A stretch of DNA of 37,515 nt, taken from positions 1 to 37,515 of the forward strand of contig CAIVJW010000183.1 of the NCBI GenBank assembly GCA_903906315.1, in the 5' to 3' direction. Positions 19,107 to 37,372 of this stretch are shown here, piece after piece (within the stretch, counting starts at the first letter, position 1; every line of letters starts with the position of its first letter). Origin of the DNA: an uncultured delta proteobacterium. GTDB lineage: Bacteria > Myxococcota_A > Polyangia > Polyangiales > Polyangiaceae. Under the pieces are notes generated by a model that searched no databases, was not told the DNA's origin, and saw nothing but the letters and a program-made list of their open reading frames with translations. A program made the position numbers and the translations under genes.

Positions 19107-20053
19107 GGAGGCGCCCCGCGGCGGTCGCGCGCGGCCCGGGCGCCTGCGTCGCGCCCCGCCGGCCCGGCTCCGCGATCAGGCGCGGCGGCGCGATCGGCCG
19201 CGGTCGTCGGCACGAGGAAGCCTCGATCGTCGATCCGCGCGGCGCGCTCCCGGAGCAGGCGCCCCGCCGCGCGCTTGAAGGACTTCTTGCTGAGCCCGAA
19301 GACGCGCCGCAGCTCGTCGGGGCTCGATCCGTCGCCGACGTCGGGCGCGCCGGGCCGCGCGAGCACCTCGAGGATCCGCCGCGCGTCGCCGTCGACCTCC
19401 TCGTGCGCGAGGCCGCGCATCGAGAGCTCGAACTTGCCGTCGGGCAGGACGCTCGTCACGCGGAAGCGCGCCGCGTCGCCGCGACCGAGCGCGTTCGGCT
19501 CGCTCTCGGGGACGAGGCCGACGAAGCGCTTCTGCACGATGATGAAGACGCCGATCCCGGGCTCCTTGCGCCACGCCTCGCCCCAGACCCACTCGTCGAG
19601 GTCGAACTCGCCGCGCGCGCGCAGGCGCTCGCTCACGCGCATGGTGCCCGCGAGGCGGCCGGTGTCGTCGAGGTAGAGCGCGATCGGGTGGCGATCGCCG
19701 CGCCGCACCTCGCGCGTCTGCTCGGCGAACGGCACGAGCAGCTCCTTCAGGAGGCCCCAGTCGACGAAGGCGCCGAAGCGGCCGACGTCGGTCACGGGGA
19801 GGAACGCGACCTCGTCGAGGAGGATCGCCGGGCGGCGCAGCGTCGCGATCGGGCGGTCCTCGGAGTCGAGGTGGATGAAGACCTCGACGAGGTCGCCCTC
19901 GTGGAGATCTTTCGGGGCCTCCGTGCCGGGCAGCAGGATGGTCGCCGCGTGCGGGTGCACGTCTTCGGGGTCGGCGGCGAGGAACACGCCCGGCGGGCCG
20001 AGGCGGCGCACGGGCAGCGAGACCACGCGCCCGAGGAGGTCGTCGAGGGACAT
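19103..20053 (-). CDS. CvfB/YitL-like S1 RNA-binding protein
   Basis: A 316-residue protein of the CvfB family (three S1-like OB folds plus a C-terminal winged helix), RNA-binding regulators first seen in Firmicutes. The first half has the pattern LLPGTEAPKDLHEGDLVEVFIHLDSEDRPIATL and DVGRFGAFVDWGLLKELLVPF, the second S1 unit typical of the family. Then comes GIGVFIIVQKRFVGLVPESEP (S1-like), and the winged helix contains DELRRVFGLSKKSFKRAAGRLLRE, which matches CvfB closely. The Ala/Arg/Pro-rich last 25 residues are extra. The frame stays open far upstream, but this is antisense to other genes. The ATG at 20053, with the -10-like AAGACT six nt before it, is the natural start. Role: post-transcriptional regulation, inferred from family. 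Confidence 0.88.
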   Translation of the reverse strand: MSLDDLLGRVVSLPVRRLGPPGVFLAADPEDVHPHAATILLPGTEAPKDLHEGDLVEVFIHLDSEDRPIATLRRPAILLDEVAFLPVTDVGRFGAFVDWGLLKELLVPFAEQTREVRRGDRHPIALYLDDTGRLAGTMRVSERLRARGEFDLDEWVWGEAWRKEPGIGVFIIVQKRFVGLVPESEPNALGRGDAARFRVTSVLPDGKFELSMRGLAHEEVDGDARRILEVLARPGAPDVGDGSSPDELRRVFGLSKKSFKRAAGRLLRERAARIDDRGFLVPTTAADRAAAPDRGAGPAGRDAGARAARDRRGAPP

Positions 20054-20059
20054 GCGGGC

Positions 20060-20065
20060 AGTCTT
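20060..20065 (-). promoter_or_regulatory. -10-like AAGACT, possible leaderless start of CvfB-like gene
   Basis: On the minus strand AAGACT lies exactly 6 nt before the ATG at 20053, with no Shine-Dalgarno between. It mirrors the arrangement at several other starts in the window. Confidence 0.35.
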
Positions 20066-20107
20066 GCACGAGCGGCGCCGCGGACCGAGCGCGCCGCGCG
20101 GGCGGCC

Positions 20108-20137
20108 TTGACGCGCCCGCGGCGGGCGACGTACGGC
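20108..20137 (+). promoter_or_regulatory. Sigma-70-like promoter of MMPL exporter
   Basis: TTGACG (20108-20113), an 18-nt spacer and TACGGC (20132-20137) form the best promoter match in the window. The expected transcription start falls close to the TTG at 20147, suggesting a leaderless or nearly leaderless message and supporting that start codon. Confidence 0.55.
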
Positions 20138-20146
20138 TCGGGCGCT

Positions 20147-22573
20147 TTGTCCCGCCCTCGAAAACTCGCCATCGCCGCGATGCTGGCGATCACCGCGCTT
20201 TCGTTCGTGGCCGTCACCCTGCGGCTGCGGCTCGAGCCGAACGTCGCCTCGCTGCTGCCGGACCGGGGCGACGCCGCGTCGCTCCGCCGGTACGTGCGCG
20301 GCTTCGGCGGCGGCGACCTCGCGGTCGTGATGGTCAAGTCGGAGGACGCCGACGACGCCGCCGCGGCGGCCGCGGAGATCGTGAGGCAGCTCGGCGGCAA
20401 GCCGAGCGTGAAGGTGGCGGCCGACCGCGTCGACGTGTCGCGCGCGCTCGATCCGATGCTCGCGTTCCGGCACGCCGACGCGCGGGCGCGCGAGCGGCTG
20501 GCGCAGGCGCTCACGCCCGAGGGCATGCGCGTCCGCCTGAAGGACACGCGCGCGATGCTGCTCGCGCCCGGCAGCGGCGCCCTCGCCGAGACGCTCGCGG
20601 CCGACCCGCTGCGCCTGTCGCAGCTCATCTTCGAGACGGGCGGCGTCGGCGGCGGCGTGCGCACGCAGGCCGACGGGGCGTTCGCGACCGACGACGGCAC
20701 GATGCACCTGGTGCTCGCGCAGCCCGCGGGGCAAGCGCTGCGCGGCGCGGACGCGCGCGCCTTCGTCGCCGACGCGAACGCGGCGATGGCGCCCGTCGCG
20801 GCCGCGCACCCGAAGGTGACGCTCGGGCTCACCGGCGGCCACGCGATCGCCGAGGCCACCGAGCGCATGCTGACGCGCGACCTCACGCTGTCGGGGTCGC
20901 TGTCGATGATCCTCGCGTCGGCCGTGTTCGCCCTGATTTTCAGGCGAATCCGCGCGCTCGTCGCGGTGATGCCGCCGCTCGTGATCGGGACGATCTGGAC
21001 GGCCGGGCTCGCGACCGTCCTGCCGGGCGGCCTCTCGGCGATCGCGGTCGCGTTCATGTCGGTCGTGGTCGGCGTGGGCGTCGACACGGGCGTGCACGTC
21101 TACGCCGCGCTCCTCGATGCGCGCCGCGAGGGCTTCTCGCCCGAGGACGCGGCCCGCGTCGCCCGGCAGCGCACCACGCGGTCCGTGATGACGGCCGCGG
21201 TGACGGCGGGGCTCGCGTTCGGCGCGCTCGCGCTGTCGGACATCAACGCGGTCCGCCAGCTCGGGATCCTGAGCGGGGCGGGTGAGATCCTGACGGCCAT
21301 CGCGATCGTGGTGGTGACGCCCGAGATCGGCGCGCGCCTCGAGAAGGGGCCGCCGCCGCCCGCGCGCCACCCCGCGTGGACCGACGCCGCCGAGTGGCTC
21401 ACGCGCACCCGCACGCGCGCCGCCGTGCTCGCCTGCGTCGCGATCCTGCCGATCGTCGCGGTCGCGGCCGGCTACGGGCCGCCGCTCGCCGAGTCGATCG
21501 TCGCCATCCGGCCGAAGAAGCTCGAGCCGCTCAAGGTGCAGCAGCAGGTGTTCGATGCGTTCGGCGGCAAGAAGGGCCAGTGGGTCGTGCTCGTCGCCGA
21601 TCGCGACCGCGACCGCGCGCGCGTGCGGGCCGACGCGGTCGCCGAGCGCTTGGCCCTGATGAAGGACGACGTCGAGAGCGTGGACGCGCTGACCGCGCTC
21701 GCGCCCGCCGCGGCCACGCAGCGCGCCCGGTTCGACGCGCGCGACGCGCTCGACCTGCCCCGCAAGGCGGGCGAGCTCGAGCGGGCGCTCGCCGAGACGG
21801 GGTTCGCGCCCGCGCGCTTCGCGGCGGCGATCGACCGCATGCGCCACGCGCCGCGGCAGGAGGTCGTGCTCGAGGACCTGCAGAAGGGCGCGGCGGCCAT
21901 CCTGCTGACGCGCTACCTCGGCGCCGACGAGGGCGACGAGCTCGTCGCCGTCTACGTGCGTCCGCGCGAGGACCCAGGGGCGATCGGGCGCATCGAGGCC
22001 GCCCTGCGGGAGACCGACCCGGGCGCGACGCTCACCGGCTACAGCCGGCTCGAGTCCTCGCTGCGCGCGACGCTCTCGCACGACCTGCCGCGCATCGGCC
22101 TGGTCGCGCTCGTGCTCGTCGTGGCGGCGCTCGCGACCTCGCTGCGGCGCGCCCGCGACGTCGGGATCGCCACGCTGGTCGTCGCCGCGGAGGTCGCGCT
22201 GGTGCTGCTGCTCGTGCGCGCGCTCGGCATCCCGCTGCACGCCTACGACGCGCTCGTGCTGCCCGTGCTCCTCGGCATCACGGTCGACGAGGGCATGTTC
22301 CTCCTGCACCGAGCGCGGACGACCTCGGATCCCGACGTCATCGGCGAGACGCTGCGCCACGAGGGGCCGTCGATCGCGGCCACCGCGCTCACGACGGCGG
22401 CCGGGTTCGGGGCGCTCGCGTTCTGCGACTTCGACGGGCTCGCGGACCTCGGGAAGGTCGGCGCGATCGGGAGCGCCGCGGGGCTCGTGGTCGCGATCGT
22501 GGTGGTCCCGGCGGGGCTGCGCCTCACGCAGCGCGCCGGGGCGGCGCCCGCGACGGCGGAGGGGCGCGGCTAG
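20147..22573 (+). CDS. MMPL/RND superfamily exporter
   Basis: An 808-residue polytopic membrane protein, duplicated as in all RND permeases. One N-terminal helix (about 7-27) is followed by a large extracytoplasmic loop. A five-helix block (about 247-397) contains VVVGVGVDTGVHVYA, the MMPL-type GxGxD motif in helix 4. A second single helix (about 424-445) and loop follow. The last block (about 645-800) contains LLGITVDEGMFLLHR, the matching motif. The conserved Asp residues should relay protons. MMPL proteins export lipids, hopanoids or glycolipids. The cargo is unknown and no adaptor or outer-membrane channel is adjacent. The TTG start at 20147 gives a basic MSRPRKLA N-terminus before helix 1 and agrees with the promoter. 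ATG 20180 would remove that charge and start inside the helix. Confidence 0.9.
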   Translation: MSRPRKLAIAAMLAITALSFVAVTLRLRLEPNVASLLPDRGDAASLRRYVRGFGGGDLAVVMVKSEDADDAAAAAAEIVRQLGGKPSVKVAADRVDVSRALDPMLAFRHADARARERLAQALTPEGMRVRLKDTRAMLLAPGSGALAETLAADPLRLSQLIFETGGVGGGVRTQADGAFATDDGTMHLVLAQPAGQALRGADARAFVADANAAMAPVAAAHPKVTLGLTGGHAIAEATERMLTRDLTLSGSLSMILASAVFALIFRRIRALVAVMPPLVIGTIWTAGLATVLPGGLSAIAVAFMSVVVGVGVDTGVHVYAALLDARREGFSPEDAARVARQRTTRSVMTAAVTAGLAFGALALSDINAVRQLGILSGAGEILTAIAIVVVTPEIGARLEKGPPPPARHPAWTDAAEWLTRTRTRAAVLACVAILPIVAVAAGYGPPLAESIVAIRPKKLEPLKVQQQVFDAFGGKKGQWVVLVADRDRDRARVRADAVAERLALMKDDVESVDALTALAPAAATQRARFDARDALDLPRKAGELERALAETGFAPARFAAAIDRMRHAPRQEVVLEDLQKGAAAILLTRYLGADEGDELVAVYVRPREDPGAIGRIEAALRETDPGATLTGYSRLESSLRATLSHDLPRIGLVALVLVVAALATSLRRARDVGIATLVVAAEVALVLLLVRALGIPLHAYDALVLPVLLGITVDEGMFLLHRARTTSDPDVIGETLRHEGPSIAATALTTAAGFGALAFCDFDGLADLGKVGAIGSAAGLVVAIVVVPAGLRLTQRAGAAPATAEGRG

Positions 22574-29906: not shown

Positions 29907-31031
29907 TTGAGCCGACGCGACTCGCTCTTCGGTGACCTCGTCCTCTGGTCCGGCCGCCCGAAGGTCCTGACGACGCCCGCGATCTACCGCGTCTCCGCCC
30001 TCGTCGCCGCCATCGCCTCGGCGACCTCCACCGCCTCGGCGGTCGTCGTCTCGACCGCGGTCGGCGCGTCGCCCGGCCAGCTCCTCGCGTTCGCCGCGTG
30101 GATGGCCACGCTCGCGGTCGCGCTCGGCATGCTGCCGCGCTGGTGGCAGGGCGCGCTCGAGTACGTGCTGACCGACCGCAACGTGGTCGTCCGGCGCGGT
30201 CGCGTGCGGCGCACCATCGACCGGCGGGCGATCAGCTTCGCGCGCATCCACTGGGACCCGAGGCACCCGGGCGTCGGCGACCTCGAGCTCGTACGCGCGG
30301 TGCCGACCGGCGCCCTGCGCAGGAGCCTCAGCGTCGTGCTCACCGGCCTCGTCGCGCCGGACCGCGTGTGGGCGATCATCCGGGGCGTGACGCCGTCGGG
30401 CCCCGCGGGCGACGGGCAGCGCCTGCTCGCGCAGCGCCTCGACGACGGCGAGCGCGTGCTGTGGTCCGCCCACCCCGCCCCGCGGCGCTGGCTCCCGACC
30501 GGCGCGCGGCCGCTCGGGTCGATCGCCCTCGGCCTCGGCCTCGGCGCGATCGCGCTGACGACGGCGCTGCACGCGAACCACGGCCTGCGCCTCGTCCTGC
30601 GCGCGGGGCTCGCGGCCGGGTCGCTGCCCTTCGTCGCGCTCGTCGTGTCGGTGGCGCTCACCGTGCTCCTGCTCGCGGTCGCCGGCGTCGCGATGGTCTA
30701 CGCGGCCCTCGTGCGGCCCGCGCGCCTCGACGCGCGCACGCGCTACTGGGTCACCGACCGCCGCGTGCTCATCCAGCGCGGCGACGAGGAGCTGCACCTC
30801 GACCGCGCGCGCGTCGCCGACGTCATCGAGGCGCCGCTCGGCCACGGGCGGTCGGACGTGTACCTCGTGCTCGACGGGCCCGCCGCGCGCGCCTTCGCGC
30901 CGAGCGGCGCCTTCGGCGAGCCGGGCGCGAGCGGGCTGCAACCGGTGCTCCACCGCGTCGCGGACGCGAGCGAGGTCGCGCGCCTGCTGCGAGGCGAGGG
31001 CGCGGCGCCGCCCGAGCGCGCCGCGGCCTGA
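29907..31031 (+). CDS. Membrane protein with two bacterial PH-like (bPH_2) units
   Basis: A 374-residue protein made of two similar halves. Each begins with an LW-S-x-x-P motif (LWSGRP 13-18; LWSAHP 185-190), then two hydrophobic helices (about 29-52 and 57-76; about 203-223 and 240-268). Each then has a beta-rich unit starting with TDRNVVVRRG (89-98) or TDRRVLIQRG (283-292). This is the layout of the bPH_2/DUF304 (YdbS/YdbT-like) family, in which the PH-like domain follows a helical pair. Function is poorly known; some relatives affect membrane stress. The start is TTG 29907, with GGAGGG at 29895-29900. It follows the TPR pair closely on the same strand and ends 8 bp from the convergent NCS1 permease stop. 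Confidence 0.8.
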   Translation: MSRRDSLFGDLVLWSGRPKVLTTPAIYRVSALVAAIASATSTASAVVVSTAVGASPGQLLAFAAWMATLAVALGMLPRWWQGALEYVLTDRNVVVRRGRVRRTIDRRAISFARIHWDPRHPGVGDLELVRAVPTGALRRSLSVVLTGLVAPDRVWAIIRGVTPSGPAGDGQRLLAQRLDDGERVLWSAHPAPRRWLPTGARPLGSIALGLGLGAIALTTALHANHGLRLVLRAGLAAGSLPFVALVVSVALTVLLLAVAGVAMVYAALVRPARLDARTRYWVTDRRVLIQRGDEELHLDRARVADVIEAPLGHGRSDVYLVLDGPAARAFAPSGAFGEPGASGLQPVLHRVADASEVARLLRGEGAAPPERAAA

Positions 31032-31039
31032 GGCGAATC

Positions 31040-32575
31040 CTACGCAGCCGGATCGGCCGTCGGCCGCGCGGCGAGCTTCGTCCCCGCGACGTAGGCGACG
31101 AACGAGATGCCGAATCCGACGAACCACGCATAGTGATAGAGCTCCATCCAGAAGCTCCCCACGTGCGCTGCCTTGATGGTGCCGAGGAAGCCCGGCAGAT
31201 TGGGCAGGATCCCGAGCACGAGGGCCCCCAGCGCGATCGGGTTCCAGCCGGCGCGGTACCAGTACGGGCCGTCCTTCCGGTAGAGGCCCACGAGGTCGAG
31301 CTCCGTCCTGCGGAGGACGAAGTAGTCGGCGATGAGCACGCCGCCGATCGACCCGAGCAGGGCCGAGTAGCCGACGAGCCAGGTGAAGATGTAGCCCGTG
31401 GGGTCGGACACGAGCCGCCAGGGCTGGATGAGAATGCCAATCACGCCGGTGAGGAATCCGCCCGTGCGGAAGGAGATCTTGCTCGGGGCGAGGTTCGCGA
31501 AGTCGTTGGCCGGGCTGACCACGTTGGCGGCGATGTTCGTGGCGAGCGTGGCGATGCACAGCGCGGCGAGCGCGACCACGAGCAAGACGGGGTTCTTGAA
31601 GCGGGTGATCAGGACGACCGGGTCCCAGATGGTCTCGCCGTAGATGACGACGGTCGCCGAGGTGACCGCGACGCCGATGAACGAGTAGAGCCCCATCGTC
31701 GTCGGCAGCCCGAGCGCCTGCCCGACGACCTGGTCGCGCTGCGAGTACGCGTAGCGGCTGAAGTCGGGGATGTTGAGGCTCAGCGTCGCCCAGAAGCCGA
31801 TCATCCCGGTCAGCGCCGGGAAGAAGAACGAGAAGAACTGCCCCTCCTTCGGCTGCCCCGCGGAGAACGCGCTCGGGGTGGCGAACATGGGCCCGAAGCC
31901 GCCGGCGGCCGAGTAGGCCCACCCGAGCAGGGCGAGCCCGAGCAGGATGAGGAGCGGCGCCTTGATGTTGAGCAGGACGCGGATCGACTCGATTCCCTTG
32001 TGGATGACCCACATGTTGATGCCCCAGAAGAAGAGGAAGCAGCCGAGCTGGGGCAGGCTGATGCCGAGGTAGGCCTTGGGCGCGGCCTCCCACGACGGGA
32101 TCCAGATGGCGAGGATCTTGAAAATGGCAAAGCCGCCAATCCAGGCCTGGATGCCGAACCAGCCGCAGGCGACCAGCGCGCGCAGCACGGCGGGCACGTT
32201 CGCGCCGCGCATCCCGAACGCGGCGCGGCAGTAGACGGGGAACGGGATGCCGAACTTCGTGCCGGCGTGGGCGTTCAGCACCATCGGCAGGAGGACTATC
32301 GTGTTGCCGAGGAAGATGGTCAGCACGGCCTGCCACCAGCTCATGCCCTCGGCGATGAGCGACGAGGCCAGCATGTAGGTCGGCACGCACGCGGACATCG
32401 AGATCCAGAGCGCGGCGATGTCCTTTTTCGCCCACTTGCGGTCGCCGCGCCGGGCCGGGGCGAGATCCTCGTTCACGTAGGGCGAAAGGAGCACGCCCTC
32501 GATCTCGTGGATCCCGTCCCTGACGGTGACGCGGGGCGCGGTGGGGCTCTCGATCGCGAGGGCGTCGGTGGTCAT
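31040..32575 (-). CDS. NCS1 family nucleobase/hydantoin:cation symporter
   Basis: A 511-residue permease with about 12 transmembrane helices in the LeuT fold. Family signatures include the N-terminal NEDLAPARRGDRKWAKKDIAALW, where the RxW/NxDL pattern precedes helix 1; GTKFGIPFPVYCRAAFGMRGANVPAVLRA after helix 2; GWFGIQAWIGG in helix 3; and LNIPDFSRYA in helix 6-8, typical of substrate and sodium or proton sites in Mhp1-type carriers. Likely substrates are uracil, allantoin, hydantoins or cytosine. The conserved Trp/Gln in FGIQAW fit but do not decide it. ATG 32575 has no strong ribosome site; TAGCCT lies 9 nt upstream. It is divergent from the alpha-hydroxy-acid oxidase homologue, with 110 bp between them, and convergent with the PH-domain gene. 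No pyrimidine or allantoin catabolic operon is adjacent. Confidence 0.93.
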   Translation of the reverse strand: MTTDALAIESPTAPRVTVRDGIHEIEGVLLSPYVNEDLAPARRGDRKWAKKDIAALWISMSACVPTYMLASSLIAEGMSWWQAVLTIFLGNTIVLLPMVLNAHAGTKFGIPFPVYCRAAFGMRGANVPAVLRALVACGWFGIQAWIGGFAIFKILAIWIPSWEAAPKAYLGISLPQLGCFLFFWGINMWVIHKGIESIRVLLNIKAPLLILLGLALLGWAYSAAGGFGPMFATPSAFSAGQPKEGQFFSFFFPALTGMIGFWATLSLNIPDFSRYAYSQRDQVVGQALGLPTTMGLYSFIGVAVTSATVVIYGETIWDPVVLITRFKNPVLLVVALAALCIATLATNIAANVVSPANDFANLAPSKISFRTGGFLTGVIGILIQPWRLVSDPTGYIFTWLVGYSALLGSIGGVLIADYFVLRRTELDLVGLYRKDGPYWYRAGWNPIALGALVLGILPNLPGFLGTIKAAHVGSFWMELYHYAWFVGFGISFVAYVAGTKLAARPTADPAA

Positions 32576-32685: not shown

Positions 32686-33804
32686 GTGGGTGGCAAGGAC
32701 CGGCGCAAGGGCAAGGATCGCAGAGAGGCGGACGCCCCGTCGCGCTGGCTCGAGGTCGAGGACGCGCGGAAGGCCGCGAAGCGCAGGCTCGCGAAGGCCG
32801 TCTACGAGCACGCGCGCGCGGGCGCCGGCAACGAGGCGACGCTCGCGGAGAACGAGGCGGCCTTCCGGCGTCGCGCGATCTGGCCGCGCGTGCTGCGCGA
32901 CGTCGCGGCCTGCGACCCGTCCACCACCGTCCTCGGCGCGGCGCTGCGGGTGCCGGTGATCGTCGCGCCGATGGGCTACCTGCGCCTCTTCGACCCGGAG
33001 GGCGAGATCGCGATGGCGCGCGCCGCCGAGGCGGCCGGCACGATCCTCGCGGTGTCCGAGCTCGCGAGCGTGCGCTTCGAGGACATCGCGGCCGCGACGG
33101 CCTCGCCCAAGTGGCTGCAGGTCTGCGTCGTGCGCGACCGCGGCCGCACCCGGGCGATCGTCGATCGCGCCGCCGCGGCCGGCTACGCGGCGATCGTGCT
33201 CACGGTCGACCTCCCGGTGATCGGCCGGAGGCCGCGCGAGATCGCGGCCGGGTTCGCGCTGCCGCCCGATCTCGCGCTCGTGAACCACGGCGCGGTGGGC
33301 GACGACGGCGCGGCCTGCCCGGCGACGCTCGACGACCTGACGCCGGACGCGACCTTGACGTTCCGCGATCTCGAGTGGCTGCGCGGGGTGGCGCCGCTGC
33401 CGCTCGTGATCAAGGGCATCCTGCGCGGCGACGACGCCGACCTCGCGGTGCGCCACGGCGCCGCCGCCGTGATCGTGTCGAACCACGGCGGCCGGCAGCT
33501 CGACGGCGCGCCCGCGGCCCTCGACGCGCTCCCCGAGGTCGCGGCCGCGGTGGCCGGTCGCGCGGAGGTGCTCGTCGACGGCGGCGTGCGATCGGGGGCC
33601 GACGTGCTGCGCGCGATCGGGCTCGGGGCCCGCGCCGTGCTCATCGGACGGCCTGCGCTCTACGGCCTCGCGGGCGGCGGTCAGGCCGGCGTCGAGCGCG
33701 TGTTCGCGATCCTCGAGGACGAGCTCCGCGCGACGATGGCCCTCGCGGGCTGCCGGCGCGTGAGCGAGCTGCCGCGCGACCTCGTGCGCCCGACCCCGCG
33801 CTGA
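32686..33804 (+). CDS. Divergent FMN-dependent alpha-hydroxy-acid oxidase/dehydrogenase homologue
   Basis: A 372-residue TIM-barrel protein of the glycolate oxidase/lactate dehydrogenase family. Several family residues are kept: catalytic base His 267 in SNHGGRQLDG, Arg 270, Asp 175 (TVDLP), Arg 182 (GRR), Lys 243 (IKGI) and the FMN-phosphate motif DGGVRSGADV...IGRP. Aligned by eye to spinach glycolate oxidase, three active-site positions differ: Tyr24 is His 42 (VYEH), Trp108 is Leu 126 and Tyr129 is Cys 147 (LQVCV). The two tyrosines normally hold the substrate carboxylate and stabilise the flavin, so substrate or chemistry is probably altered. The basic N-terminal tail (GGKDRRKGKDRRE) is extra. 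It is divergent from the NCS1 permease and followed by plsC after 183 bp. Confidence 0.88.
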   Translation: MGGKDRRKGKDRREADAPSRWLEVEDARKAAKRRLAKAVYEHARAGAGNEATLAENEAAFRRRAIWPRVLRDVAACDPSTTVLGAALRVPVIVAPMGYLRLFDPEGEIAMARAAEAAGTILAVSELASVRFEDIAAATASPKWLQVCVVRDRGRTRAIVDRAAAAGYAAIVLTVDLPVIGRRPREIAAGFALPPDLALVNHGAVGDDGAACPATLDDLTPDATLTFRDLEWLRGVAPLPLVIKGILRGDDADLAVRHGAAAVIVSNHGGRQLDGAPAALDALPEVAAAVAGRAEVLVDGGVRSGADVLRAIGLGARAVLIGRPALYGLAGGGQAGVERVFAILEDELRATMALAGCRRVSELPRDLVRPTPR

Positions 33805-33987: not shown

Positions 33988-34776
33988 ATGCCGAGCTCCG
34001 CTCCGACGCCCGCGTCCCCCACGCGTGTCGGCGCCCTCGACTGGGTCGCCACCGGCGCGACCATGTCGGGCGTCTTCGCAGCCCTCTTCTCGTTCGACGT
34101 CGTCCAGCGGGTCGCGTCGCGGTTCGGGCCGCACGCCCAGCAGCGCGCCGTCTCCCACATGGCGCGCGCCATCAACCTCGCGACGCGCCTCTCGGGGACG
34201 CGGTACCGCTGCGAGGGCCTCGGTCACGTCGACCCGAAGCAGAACTACATCGTGGTGTCGAACCACCAGTCGCTGCTCGACATCTCGCAGGCCTCCGAGT
34301 ACCTCGCCGCGCTCGAGCCCCGCTACGTCTCGAAGATCGAGCTCGCGCGCGGCGTGCCCGGCGTCTCCTACAACCTGTCGCGGGGCGGGTCGGCGTGCAT
34401 CGACCGGCGCGACCCGGCGCAGGCCCGCGCCGCGATCGAGGAGCTCGGCCGGCGCGTGCGCGACGACCACTGGACGGTGGTCATCTACCCGGAGGGCACG
34501 CGCTCGCGCGACGGCCGCATGCGCCCGTGGAAGACCGGCGGCCTGCGGACGCTGCTCGCGTGCGCCCCCGGAGTGCCCGTCCTGCCCATCACGACCTCGG
34601 GCGGGTCGAGGCTGTTTCAGTACGGGATGAAGCCGCTCGTGCGAGGCGTGCCTCTCGTGTTTCGAATCCACCCGCCCATGGCCCCGCCGGACGCGGCCGA
34701 CGACGCGGCGTTCGACGACTTCGTCCGCCGCTGCGCCGCCGTCATCGAGGGCGCCCTGCCGGATCCGCCCCTCTGA
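33988..34776 (+). CDS. plsC: 1-acyl-sn-glycerol-3-phosphate acyltransferase family
   Basis: A 262-residue acyltransferase of the PlsC/LPLAT family, which acylates lysophosphatidate to phosphatidate at the inner membrane. The HX4D catalytic box is NHQSLLD, with His 93 and Asp 98. The glycerol-phosphate-binding box is YPEGTRSRDG (167-176), a Y variant of FPEGTR. A hydrophobic segment near residues 20-38 may anchor it. Length and box order are normal. The protein resembles human AGPAT1/2-like forms more than E. coli PlsC in the RYRCEGLGHVDP lead-in. It is the only phospholipid-synthesis gene here, and a family member acting on another acyl acceptor cannot be excluded. It is followed by greB after 141 bp of featureless DNA. 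Confidence 0.88.
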   Translation: MPSSAPTPASPTRVGALDWVATGATMSGVFAALFSFDVVQRVASRFGPHAQQRAVSHMARAINLATRLSGTRYRCEGLGHVDPKQNYIVVSNHQSLLDISQASEYLAALEPRYVSKIELARGVPGVSYNLSRGGSACIDRRDPAQARAAIEELGRRVRDDHWTVVIYPEGTRSRDGRMRPWKTGGLRTLLACAPGVPVLPITTSGGSRLFQYGMKPLVRGVPLVFRIHPPMAPPDAADDAAFDDFVRRCAAVIEGALPDPPL

Positions 34777-35563: not shown

Positions 35564-36319
35564 ATGAGCCTGCTGCTCCTCGCGATCGTGGTGCTCGCGG
35601 CGTTCTCGGTCGAGGCCGTCGTCGGCTTCGGCAGCACCGTGATCGCCGTCACGTTCGGCGCGCAGATCCTGCCGATCGACGCGCTCCTGCCCGCGTTCGT
35701 CCCGCTCAACCTGGCGCTCTCGCTCGTGATCGTCGCGAGGAACGCGCGATCCGTCGACGCGCGGCTGCTCGTCCGCCGCGTCCTGCCCGCCGTCGGCGTG
35801 GGCCTCGCGATCGGCCTCGGGGCCTTTCGCCTCCTGCGGGTCGGCGACACGGCCGCCCTCGAGCTCGTCCTCGCCGCCTTCGTCGTGAGCCTGGCCGTGA
35901 TCGAGCTCGCCCGGCTGGCCCGCCCCGCCGCCGCGGCGACCGGTCGCCCGATCGCCCCGATCGCCGCCGCGGCCTTGCTCGCCCTCGGCGGCGTCGCTCA
36001 CGGCCTCTTCGGGTCCGGGGGGCCGATGGTCGTCTACGTCGCGAGCCGCGAGCTCGAGGGCAAGGCCCGCTTCCGCGCCACGCTGTCGGCGCTGTGGCTC
36101 GTGCTGAACGTCACGCTCGTCGTCAACTACGCCTCCCTCGGCCTGATCGGCCGCGCGTCGGCCGGCCGGAGCCTCGCGCTCGCCCCGTCGCTCCTGCTCG
36201 CGATCCCGATCGGCGAGTGGCTTCATCACCGCCTGCCCGAGGCTCGCTTTCGCCCCGTCGTCTACGCCGTCCTGCTCGTCGGCGGGCTGGCCCTCGGCGC
36301 CCGCCATGTGCTCCCCTGA
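35564..36319 (+). CDS. TauE/SafE family sulfite/anion exporter
   Basis: A 251-residue membrane protein with about eight helices in two repeats. Each repeat opens with the family's G-F-G-x-x motif: EAVVGFGSTVIAV in the first helix region, and GGVAHGLFGSGGPMVVYVAS in the second. ATLSALWLVLNVTLVVNY also fits. TauE/SafE proteins export sulfite, sulfoacetate or related organosulfonates, and some act on other anions. The substrate is not identifiable. The ATG at 35564 has GAGGGG just upstream. The amidohydrolase gene begins 42 bp after its stop on the same strand, so the two may form an operon, perhaps for turnover and export of a common metabolite (inferred). Confidence 0.88.
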   Translation: MSLLLLAIVVLAAFSVEAVVGFGSTVIAVTFGAQILPIDALLPAFVPLNLALSLVIVARNARSVDARLLVRRVLPAVGVGLAIGLGAFRLLRVGDTAALELVLAAFVVSLAVIELARLARPAAAATGRPIAPIAAAALLALGGVAHGLFGSGGPMVVYVASRELEGKARFRATLSALWLVLNVTLVVNYASLGLIGRASAGRSLALAPSLLLAIPIGEWLHHRLPEARFRPVVYAVLLVGGLALGARHVLP

Positions 36320-36361
36320 CGGGGCCCGCCGCCGACGGCTTCGCTTTCATCCGGAGACCCA

Positions 36362-37372
36362 ATGAACGCCACGTCGACCCGCTTCGCCGATCTTCTCGAC
36401 CTCGCCCGACTGCCGTACTTCGAGGCCGTCGACGGCCGGCTGCGCCTCGCCGACCCGGCGCTCGGCCCGGCGATCGACGTGCACACGCACCTCGCGCTCG
36501 CCTACGTGGTAGCGAGCCAGATCGATCTGCACCGCGAGTGGCCGGCGACCGAGCACTACCTGCCGTCGTACCGGGCGTTCGAGCTCGACGTGTACGCCAA
36601 TCGCAATTTTCTCCCCGAGGACATGGCGCGCATGAAGCGCGACCTCGCGCTCGGCAGCGTGACGGCCGGCGGCATGCGCCGCACGCACACGGTGCCGAAC
36701 CTCGCGCGCGAGATGAGCGACCTCGGCATCCGCGCCTCGGTGCTCCTGCCCATCGACTTCCCGGTGCTCTCGGACAACGCGAGGACGTGGCTCCGCGCCG
36801 TCGCCGGCCGCGGCGACTTCGTCGGCTTCGGGTCGGTGCACCCGTACGCGGCGGACGTGGAGGGCAAGCTCGACGAGCAGATCGCGCTCGGCGCGCGCGG
36901 CGTGAAGGTGCACCCCGCCGTCCAGCACGTCCGGCCCGACGCCGAGCGCGCGAAGCGGCTCTACCGGCTCTGCGGCGAGAAGGGCCTGGTCGTCTTCTTC
37001 CACTGCGGGCCGGTCGACATCGAGACGCGCCTCGGCCGCTACCTGTCGCAGGTGCGCCACTACGAGGAGGCGGTCGCGGAGTGCCCGGCGACGACGTTCG
37101 TCCTCGGTCACTCGGGCGCGCTGCAGATGCCCGAGGCGCTCGGCTTCGCGAAGAAGTACCCGAACGTGTGGCTCGAGATTGCCAGTCAGTCACTCTCCGG
37201 CGTGCGCCGGCTATGCGACGAGGCGCCCGAGGATCGCCTGCTCTTCGGCACGGACTGGCCCTTTTACCCGCAGGCCGCCGGGCTCGCGAAGGTCTTCCTC
37301 GCGACCGAGGGGAGAGACGCCCTGCGCCGGAAGGTCCTGCACGAGAACGCCGAGCGGCTGCTCGGCCTCTAG
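36362..37372 (+). CDS. Amidohydrolase-2 family metal-dependent hydrolase/decarboxylase
   Basis: A 336-residue TIM-barrel enzyme. Metal-binding motifs of the ACMSD/amidohydrolase_2 group are seen in order: HTH (His 41, His 43) after strand 1, the strand containing GARGVKVHPAVQ, FFHCGP, VLGHSG, and FGTDWPF with Asp 298. The ending NAERLLGL is also characteristic. The group includes decarboxylases of aromatic acids (ACMSD, gamma-resorcylate) and lactonases, so hydrolysis or decarboxylation are both possible. A helical insertion after the HTH (SQIDLHREWPATEHYLPS to MARMKRDLALG) would cover the active site. The start ATG 36362 has GGAG at 7-10 nt. It follows the TauE transporter by 42 bp. Confidence 0.88.
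   Translation: MNATSTRFADLLDLARLPYFEAVDGRLRLADPALGPAIDVHTHLALAYVVASQIDLHREWPATEHYLPSYRAFELDVYANRNFLPEDMARMKRDLALGSVTAGGMRRTHTVPNLAREMSDLGIRASVLLPIDFPVLSDNARTWLRAVAGRGDFVGFGSVHPYAADVEGKLDEQIALGARGVKVHPAVQHVRPDAERAKRLYRLCGEKGLVVFFHCGPVDIETRLGRYLSQVRHYEEAVAECPATTFVLGHSGALQMPEALGFAKKYPNVWLEIASQSLSGVRRLCDEAPEDRLLFGTDWPFYPQAAGLAKVFLATEGRDALRRKVLHENAERLLGL

Follow-up and report, generated by a model that had tools for sequence, protein, structure and literature searches.

The window analysed here, a stretch of 37,515 nucleotides from an uncultured delta proteobacterium, encodes a homologue of the FMN-dependent alpha-hydroxy-acid oxidases and dehydrogenases in which both tyrosines of the substrate pocket are replaced, one by histidine (His42) and the other by cysteine (Cys147). 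Cysteine at the latter site was found in this single sequence in the data seen. Judged by its sequence, the protein is a variant inside a well-known family and stands alone in those data. Since the catalytic histidine and the two arginines that anchor the substrate are still in place, we tentatively read it as an alpha-hydroxy-acid enzyme that is active but has an altered pocket, in which oxidative decarboxylation is probably favoured.

The gene, its product and its surroundings

The oxidase frame was uninterrupted over its 372 residues, with a GC3 (0.97) like that of most genes in the window (Table 1). Its product matched the FMN_dh profile PF01070 at 407.6 bits (cut-off 24.9) over profile positions 1-349 of 350. 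Five NCBIfam models were matched at 1e-5, none of them up to its own cut-off; scores stayed below the cut-offs of the models for the L-lactate dehydrogenase LldD (NF033901, 241.2 against 550 bits; NF008398, 274.4 against 376 bits) and for lactate oxidase (TIGR02708, 248.8 against 645.5 bits). The genome of origin (8.8 Mb, 455 contigs) held a single further FMN_dh-type match at 1e-3, weak and partial. The AlphaFold model of the protein was of high fold confidence (pLDDT 92.9, pTM 0.92). In a fold search with this model, glycolate oxidases ranked first among solved structures, at about 42% identity, and structures of p-hydroxymandelate oxidase (Hmo) appeared from rank 19 on, with 5zzz in the top 50 at 1.2 A rmsd.

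Table 1. The oxidase gene, its pocket and catalytic residues, and the flanking genes (positions in the window; GOX, glycolate oxidase in presumed spinach numbering)
Feature	Position	Strand	Remarks
FMN-dependent alpha-hydroxy-acid oxidase/dehydrogenase homologue	32686..33804	+	372 aa; GTG start, start codon uncertain
His42, codon CAC	32809..32811	+	GOX Tyr24 position
Leu126, codon CTC	33061..33063	+	GOX Trp108 position; residue ordinary in bacteria
Cys147, codon TGC	33124..33126	+	GOX Tyr129 position, Hmo Tyr128
Asp175 to Arg182	33208..33231	+	catalytic Asp and substrate-binding Arg (GOX D157, R164), kept
Lys243	33412..33414	+	GOX K230 equivalent, kept
SNHGGR segment with His267 and Arg270	33478..33495	+	GOX H254 and R257; catalytic base and carboxylate-binding Arg, kept
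NCS1 nucleobase:cation symporter	31040..32575	-	divergent upstream neighbour; profile match
PlsC-like acyltransferase	33988..34776	+	downstream neighbour; profile match

None of the nearby genes in the window hints at a hydroxy acid, at a keto acid or at a product of decarboxylation. Beyond the PlsC-like acyltransferase lie GreB, a TauE-type permease and an amidohydrolase; the last two (35564-37372; the permease of TauE/SafE type, the enzyme after it of Amidohydro_2 type) matched no NCBIfam model at 1e-5. Elsewhere in the window, a 374-aa frame with a TTG start (29907-31031) had no Pfam match at 1e-5 and by eye resembled a membrane protein of two similar halves. The second part of a 1056-aa frame (19403-22573) looked, again by eye, like an RND/MMPL-type transporter, and the gene probably starts far downstream of the GTG given for that frame. 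ARAGORN found no tRNA genes in the window, and no Rfam matches were found there at gathering score.

The best specific model for the NCS1 permease was that of allantoin permease (270.5 bits against a cut-off of 620), and this resemblance led us to consider ureidoglycolate, a 2-hydroxy acid, as substrate. The ureidoglycolate or allantoin idea was dropped: the genome's best match to the allantoinase model scored 298.7 bits (cut-off 357.85) and was a dihydropyrimidinase at 603.9 bits (cut-off 393.25). When the proteins of the window were compared at 1e-15 with the loci of relatives, with flanks of ~1.5 to 6 kb, no conserved partner genes were found. Besides the oxidase, three window frames matched those loci, all kinase- or sensor-type by eye; the NCS1 permease had no match at that threshold, many flanks being only ~1.5 kb long. 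A separate observation concerns one locus (L140:7210-8292, G020), in which an FMN_dh protein is preceded by two frames (311 and 255 residues) that look oxygenase-like by eye; the gene lies between very large frames (1732 and 2206 residues), an arrangement resembling a biosynthetic gene cluster.

Pocket residues and their frequency

Residue equivalences were taken from phmmer (HMMER) alignments of the window protein to solved chains. The aligned letters were computed; the glycolate oxidase numbers attached to them are those we take to belong to the spinach enzyme. His42 stood opposite tyrosine in human HAO1, plant glycolate oxidase and lactate oxidase, Cys147 opposite tyrosine in HAO1, lactate oxidase and wild-type Hmo, and Leu126 opposite tryptophan in HAO1 but opposite leucine in Hmo. 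No substitute tyrosine appeared in either aligned column (42 or 147), as far as the sequence alignments indicate. The aspartate, lysine, histidine and both arginines expected of an S-2-hydroxyacid oxidase (EC 1.1.3.15) were all present (D175, R182, K243, H267, R270), Lys243 presumably being an FMN contact like K230 of glycolate oxidase; neither tyrosine of the Tyr/Tyr/Arg substrate triad was (H42, C147). An earlier, sequence-only reading of this DNA had equated His42 with Tyr24, Leu126 with Trp108 and Cys147 with Tyr129, and had named Asp175, Arg182, Lys243, His267 and Arg270 as retained; the alignments to solved enzymes bear out the three equivalences, and the five other residues are indeed present. 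According to PMC4908395, the corresponding triad of lactate oxidase (Tyr40, Tyr146, Arg268) positions the substrate, the carboxylate lying by Tyr40 and Arg268 and the C2 keto group by Tyr146.

Residue frequencies were counted over 178 rows, 165 of them distinct over residues 36-330, the window protein included, after leaving out L002, L025, L026, L028, L125-L128, L137-L140, L164, L195-L200 and translations of 300 aa or less. The 165 distinct proteins are a non-random sample: its species-collection part consists of the best 80 among the matches listed, and 30 rows of the count set came from a Tyr-or-Cys pattern search that is blind to phenylalanine. Among the matches listed, position 42 was tyrosine in 150, phenylalanine in 11, histidine in two (the window protein's own included) and alanine in two; position 147 was tyrosine in 162, phenylalanine in two and cysteine in one, the window protein. 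Among the other 164 distinct relatives, within the same matches, His42 thus occurred once and Cys147 never, nor did the two together. Position 126 presented a different picture (leucine in 83, methionine in 55, valine in 10 and phenylalanine in five of the 165 among the matches listed, with tryptophan in one). The sequence-only reading had counted Leu126 among the changes; it does occupy the Trp108 site, but since leucine is the commonest residue there it represents neither a loss nor a peculiarity.

Genomes were also searched directly at the DNA level. Out of 317 genomes in the class, a pattern for the cysteine in its context matched only the one from which the window comes; because the tyrosine form of the same pattern finds 121 of 160 collected rows, the cysteine form sees about three quarters of the members. 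Among 149 Actinomycetota genomes, the Tyr-or-Cys pattern gave 40 matches in 36 genomes, all 40 with tyrosine and none with cysteine at the site. No report of natural variants at the Tyr129-equivalent position was found in the open-licence literature searched.

Fifty-five columns were at least 90% conserved among the 177 other rows, and the window protein keeps 51 of them; its four departures are Y42H, F144L, Y147C and D185E, two of which are the pocket tyrosines. The probability that four random departures would include both pocket tyrosines is 0.004, a post hoc figure for a finding that was chosen because of them. In a smaller row set the window protein departed at five conserved columns, which placed it at rank 5 of 119, with ties: high, not highest.

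Relatives and descent

The window protein was used as query against overlapping genome sets: 97 relatives, 183 members of its order, 317 members of its class and 377 members of its phylum. Thresholds ran from 1e-20 to 1e-95 (strict in the later searches), and at most 30 loci were read per search. The nearest relatives among the matches listed were at most ~56% identical (about 50-56%). These nearest sequences (L003 to L008 and L129 to L133), glycolate-oxidase-like proteins from the same family or class, all have Tyr129, and all except L130 have Tyr24. In L130 (genome G313; 54% identical to the window protein), histidine occupies the Tyr24 site and Tyr129 is kept; the same protein also has serine at the Ala79 site. 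A second protein with both His42 and Cys147 was found neither in the relative, order, class and phylum sets, among the matches listed, nor around G313 when L130 was used for the search, nor in the species collection, again among the matches listed (best 80; one of the six peptide patterns holds cysteine). Plasmid relatives of the window protein comprised 23 records, all below 60% identity.

In a quick tree of 132 rows, the window protein and its nearest glycolate-oxidase-like relatives shared one starred group of 32 rows. A 40-row tree gave the window protein the longest end branch of its group (1.52 compared with a median of 0.37) and a placement that was not fixed. A sister relation with L130 was neither rejected nor supported (p-AU 0.40), and His42 may accordingly be ancient or may have arisen twice, as far as sequence relationships go. 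The sequence-only reading had suggested a family tree to test whether the paired Y24H and Y129C changes define a conserved clade. In the genomes searched they do not: the nearest relatives are canonical, L130 combines His42 with Tyr129, and the pair is absent from all 164 other proteins. Conservation of the His42/Cys147 pair cannot be demonstrated for an orphan sequence at the end of a long branch. The sequence-only reading had named canonical residues in close relatives as evidence that would refute it; the nearest relatives do have the canonical tyrosines, but at 50-56% identity they are not close.

Phenylalanine at both sites was observed in two other proteins, one gammaproteobacterial (L067:6034-7194) and one from Rhizobiales (L106:5573-6772). 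They have glycine at the Trp108 site and keep the other catalytic residues, and they form one group (SH-aLRT 100 in the quick tree) while being 59% identical to each other; loss of the hydroxyl therefore occurs elsewhere in the family and has been kept over some divergence. Plasmid relatives of L067 numbered 315 records, all below 60% identity. At the L106 locus, an amidohydrolase-like frame overlaps the end of the FMN_dh gene and is followed by a LysR-type frame, both judged by eye.

A candidate oxidative decarboxylase and its rivals

The reaction that we envisage for the window protein is modelled on lactate monooxygenase and on the engineered Hmo variants Y128F and Y128C. The substrate would be an (S)-2-hydroxy acid, whose side chain may be bulky; bound through Arg182, Arg270 and possibly His42, it would reduce FMN through His267. 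In Hmo, the phenol hydroxyl of the tyrosine that corresponds to Cys147 aids release of the keto acid and H2O2. Lacking this hydroxyl, the window protein would retain the keto acid beside the flavin peroxide and oxidise it further, in a four-electron oxidative decarboxylation, to CO2 and an acid one carbon shorter. Cys147 might in addition be oxidised to sulfenic acid, as in Hmo Y128C. Oxidative decarboxylation is extrapolated here from the Hmo mutants to a protein in which position 42 is changed too, and we put it forward as a possibility, with some reserve. Rather doubtful is the complete proposal of a natural FMN hydroxy-acid oxidative decarboxylase that arose by a Tyr-to-Cys change at the oxygen-controlling tyrosine, with histidine supplying the lost carboxylate contact and a cysteine sulfenic acid possibly acting as a switch.

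The Hmo mutants carry most of this argument. As reported in PMC6677016 and PMC6778850, Y128F turns mandelate into benzoate with a kcat of 4.5 per s and into benzoylformate with one of 0.05 per s; the reaction is described as a four-electron oxidative decarboxylation whose product takes its oxygen from O2, and the flavin peroxide signal lasts ~ten times longer in this mutant. Y128C too can convert mandelate to benzoate, according to these papers, and activity is lost in R163A, H252F and R255A. The counterparts of these three residues are kept in the window protein, R182 by direct alignment and H267 and R270 by family motif. The sequence-only reading had raised the possibility of an adduct between the cysteine and the flavin; in the engineered equivalent, Y128C, the thiol is instead reported as oxidised to S-OH (PMC6778850). 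The tyrosine appears to set a balance rather than to act as an on-off switch, because wild-type Hmo also performs some four-electron oxidation and keto acids lead to dead-end flavin N5 adducts in Y128F (PMC6778850).

The window protein could instead be a two-electron oxidase or dehydrogenase of the usual type whose specificity has changed, a reasonable possibility in which His42 would replace the carboxylate hydrogen bond of Tyr24, Cys147 together with Ala43 would admit a bulky side chain, and the product would be the 2-keto acid. The carboxylate-binding arginines are kept, and His42 also occurs in L130 beside an intact Tyr129. Position 42 tolerates change, since it is phenylalanine in 11 of the 165 distinct proteins among the matches listed, and the gradation between wild-type Hmo and its mutants (PMC6778850) fits this alternative as well. 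Set against it is the behaviour of the mutants themselves: Y128F yields mainly the shortened acid, which Y128C is also able to form (PMC6677016, PMC6778850). The new specificity proposed in the sequence-only reading is possible, but what the published mutants suggest in the first place is a different outcome of the reaction.

That reading also preferred a new specificity to a dead enzyme. Loss of activity is not our leading explanation either, because the catalytic histidine, both substrate-binding arginines, the aspartate and the lysine are intact and the fold is confidently predicted. A related scenario is relaxed constraint, with an orphan copy drifting to very weak activity or to loss. The codons CAC and TGC can each be reached from TAC by one GC-raising transition, so that both changes are single AT-to-GC transitions in a window of 74% GC; the end branch is the longest of its group (1.52 as compared with 0.37), and no closer relative was found in the genomes searched, among the matches listed. 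Tyrosine is scarce in the protein, with four in the core compared with a median of seven, a count of four or fewer being reached in 21 of 178 rows, but L130 and L010 likewise have four. Drift would also have had to spare the 372-aa frame, a GC3 of 0.97 and 51 of 55 conserved columns, the other catalytic residues included. With a pocket that is changed and a catalytic core that is kept, sequence considerations make decay by general loss of constraint improbable, though still a live rival.

A non-hydroxy-acid enzyme of the kind represented by the pre-mycofactocin synthase MftD, in which loss of the carboxylate-binding tyrosine would signal another substrate class, is very improbable. MftD oxidises an amine-bearing intermediate and is not known to act on a hydroxy acid. 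The Tyr24 site is changed in MftD as it is in the window protein, to alanine in two MftD proteins (L156, L157) that exceed the TIGR03966 cut-off, but both of these have asparagine for Arg257 and keep Tyr129, the reverse of the window protein, which scored 246.8 bits against that cut-off of 470.85. Assembly or base-calling errors, conceivable in a draft genome of 455 contigs, are scarcely credible, since two separate errors would have had to fall exactly on both pocket tyrosine codons in a clean frame.

We return to the candidate decarboxylase in comparison with characterized enzymes. The plant and human glycolate oxidases (1gox, HAO1) share with the window protein the catalytic aspartate, both arginines, lysine and histidine. 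Differences from glycolate oxidase are Y24H, Y25A, T78M, A79G, W108L and Y129C, in what we take to be spinach numbering; of these, W108L, Y25A and A79G are frequent among bacterial proteins. The window protein cautions against calling proteins of its kind glycolate oxidases by homology alone. Against the proposed decarboxylation, Tyr-to-Phe mutants of glycolate oxidase (at the Tyr24 and Tyr129 sites) and of flavocytochrome b2 are slow two-electron enzymes and are not known as decarboxylases.

Lactate monooxygenase (PDB 6dvh) has the decarboxylating outcome proposed for the window protein but is distant from it (181.7 bits). It keeps the seven conserved residues of the family and has a long loop 4, according to PMC8491902. 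This long loop is absent from the window protein: loop 4 (residues 193-228) has 36 residues there, compared with a median of 43 and a maximum of 67 across 178 rows, and is shorter than in HAO1 and L130; L067 and L106, by comparison, have a long one of 62 residues. A further reservation comes from a screen of 24 FMN_dh proteins (PMC8491902): all seven conserved residues were present in 12 of the 14 active proteins, so that two of the 14 were active without the full set, and at least one was missing in 8 of the 10 inactive proteins.

The closest parallel is the Y128C mutant of Hmo from Amycolatopsis orientalis (PDB 5zzz), which has the same fold, a cysteine at the aligned position of Cys147 and, as in the window protein, leucine at the Trp108 site. 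The 5zzz chain scored higher against the window protein than the wild-type Hmo chain did, both over residues 120-208 (54.5 as compared with 49.5 bits) and over the whole protein (255.5 as compared with 250.7 bits). The window protein differs from Hmo Y128C also by histidine at the Tyr24 site, and its use of mandelate is only conjectural. At the Tyr129 site, L067 and L106 are the natural counterparts of Hmo Y128F; if the proposed activity is real, then together with those two proteins it would mean that this chemistry was reached at the same residue more than once, and in the window protein without the long loop that lactate monooxygenase has. Engineering of Hmo has traced its balance between oxidase and monooxygenase-like activity to one tyrosine. 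The cysteine put there in place of wild-type Tyr128, in a mutant that has been crystallised, occurs naturally in the window protein, which therefore allows a direct check on whether this lever is used in nature.
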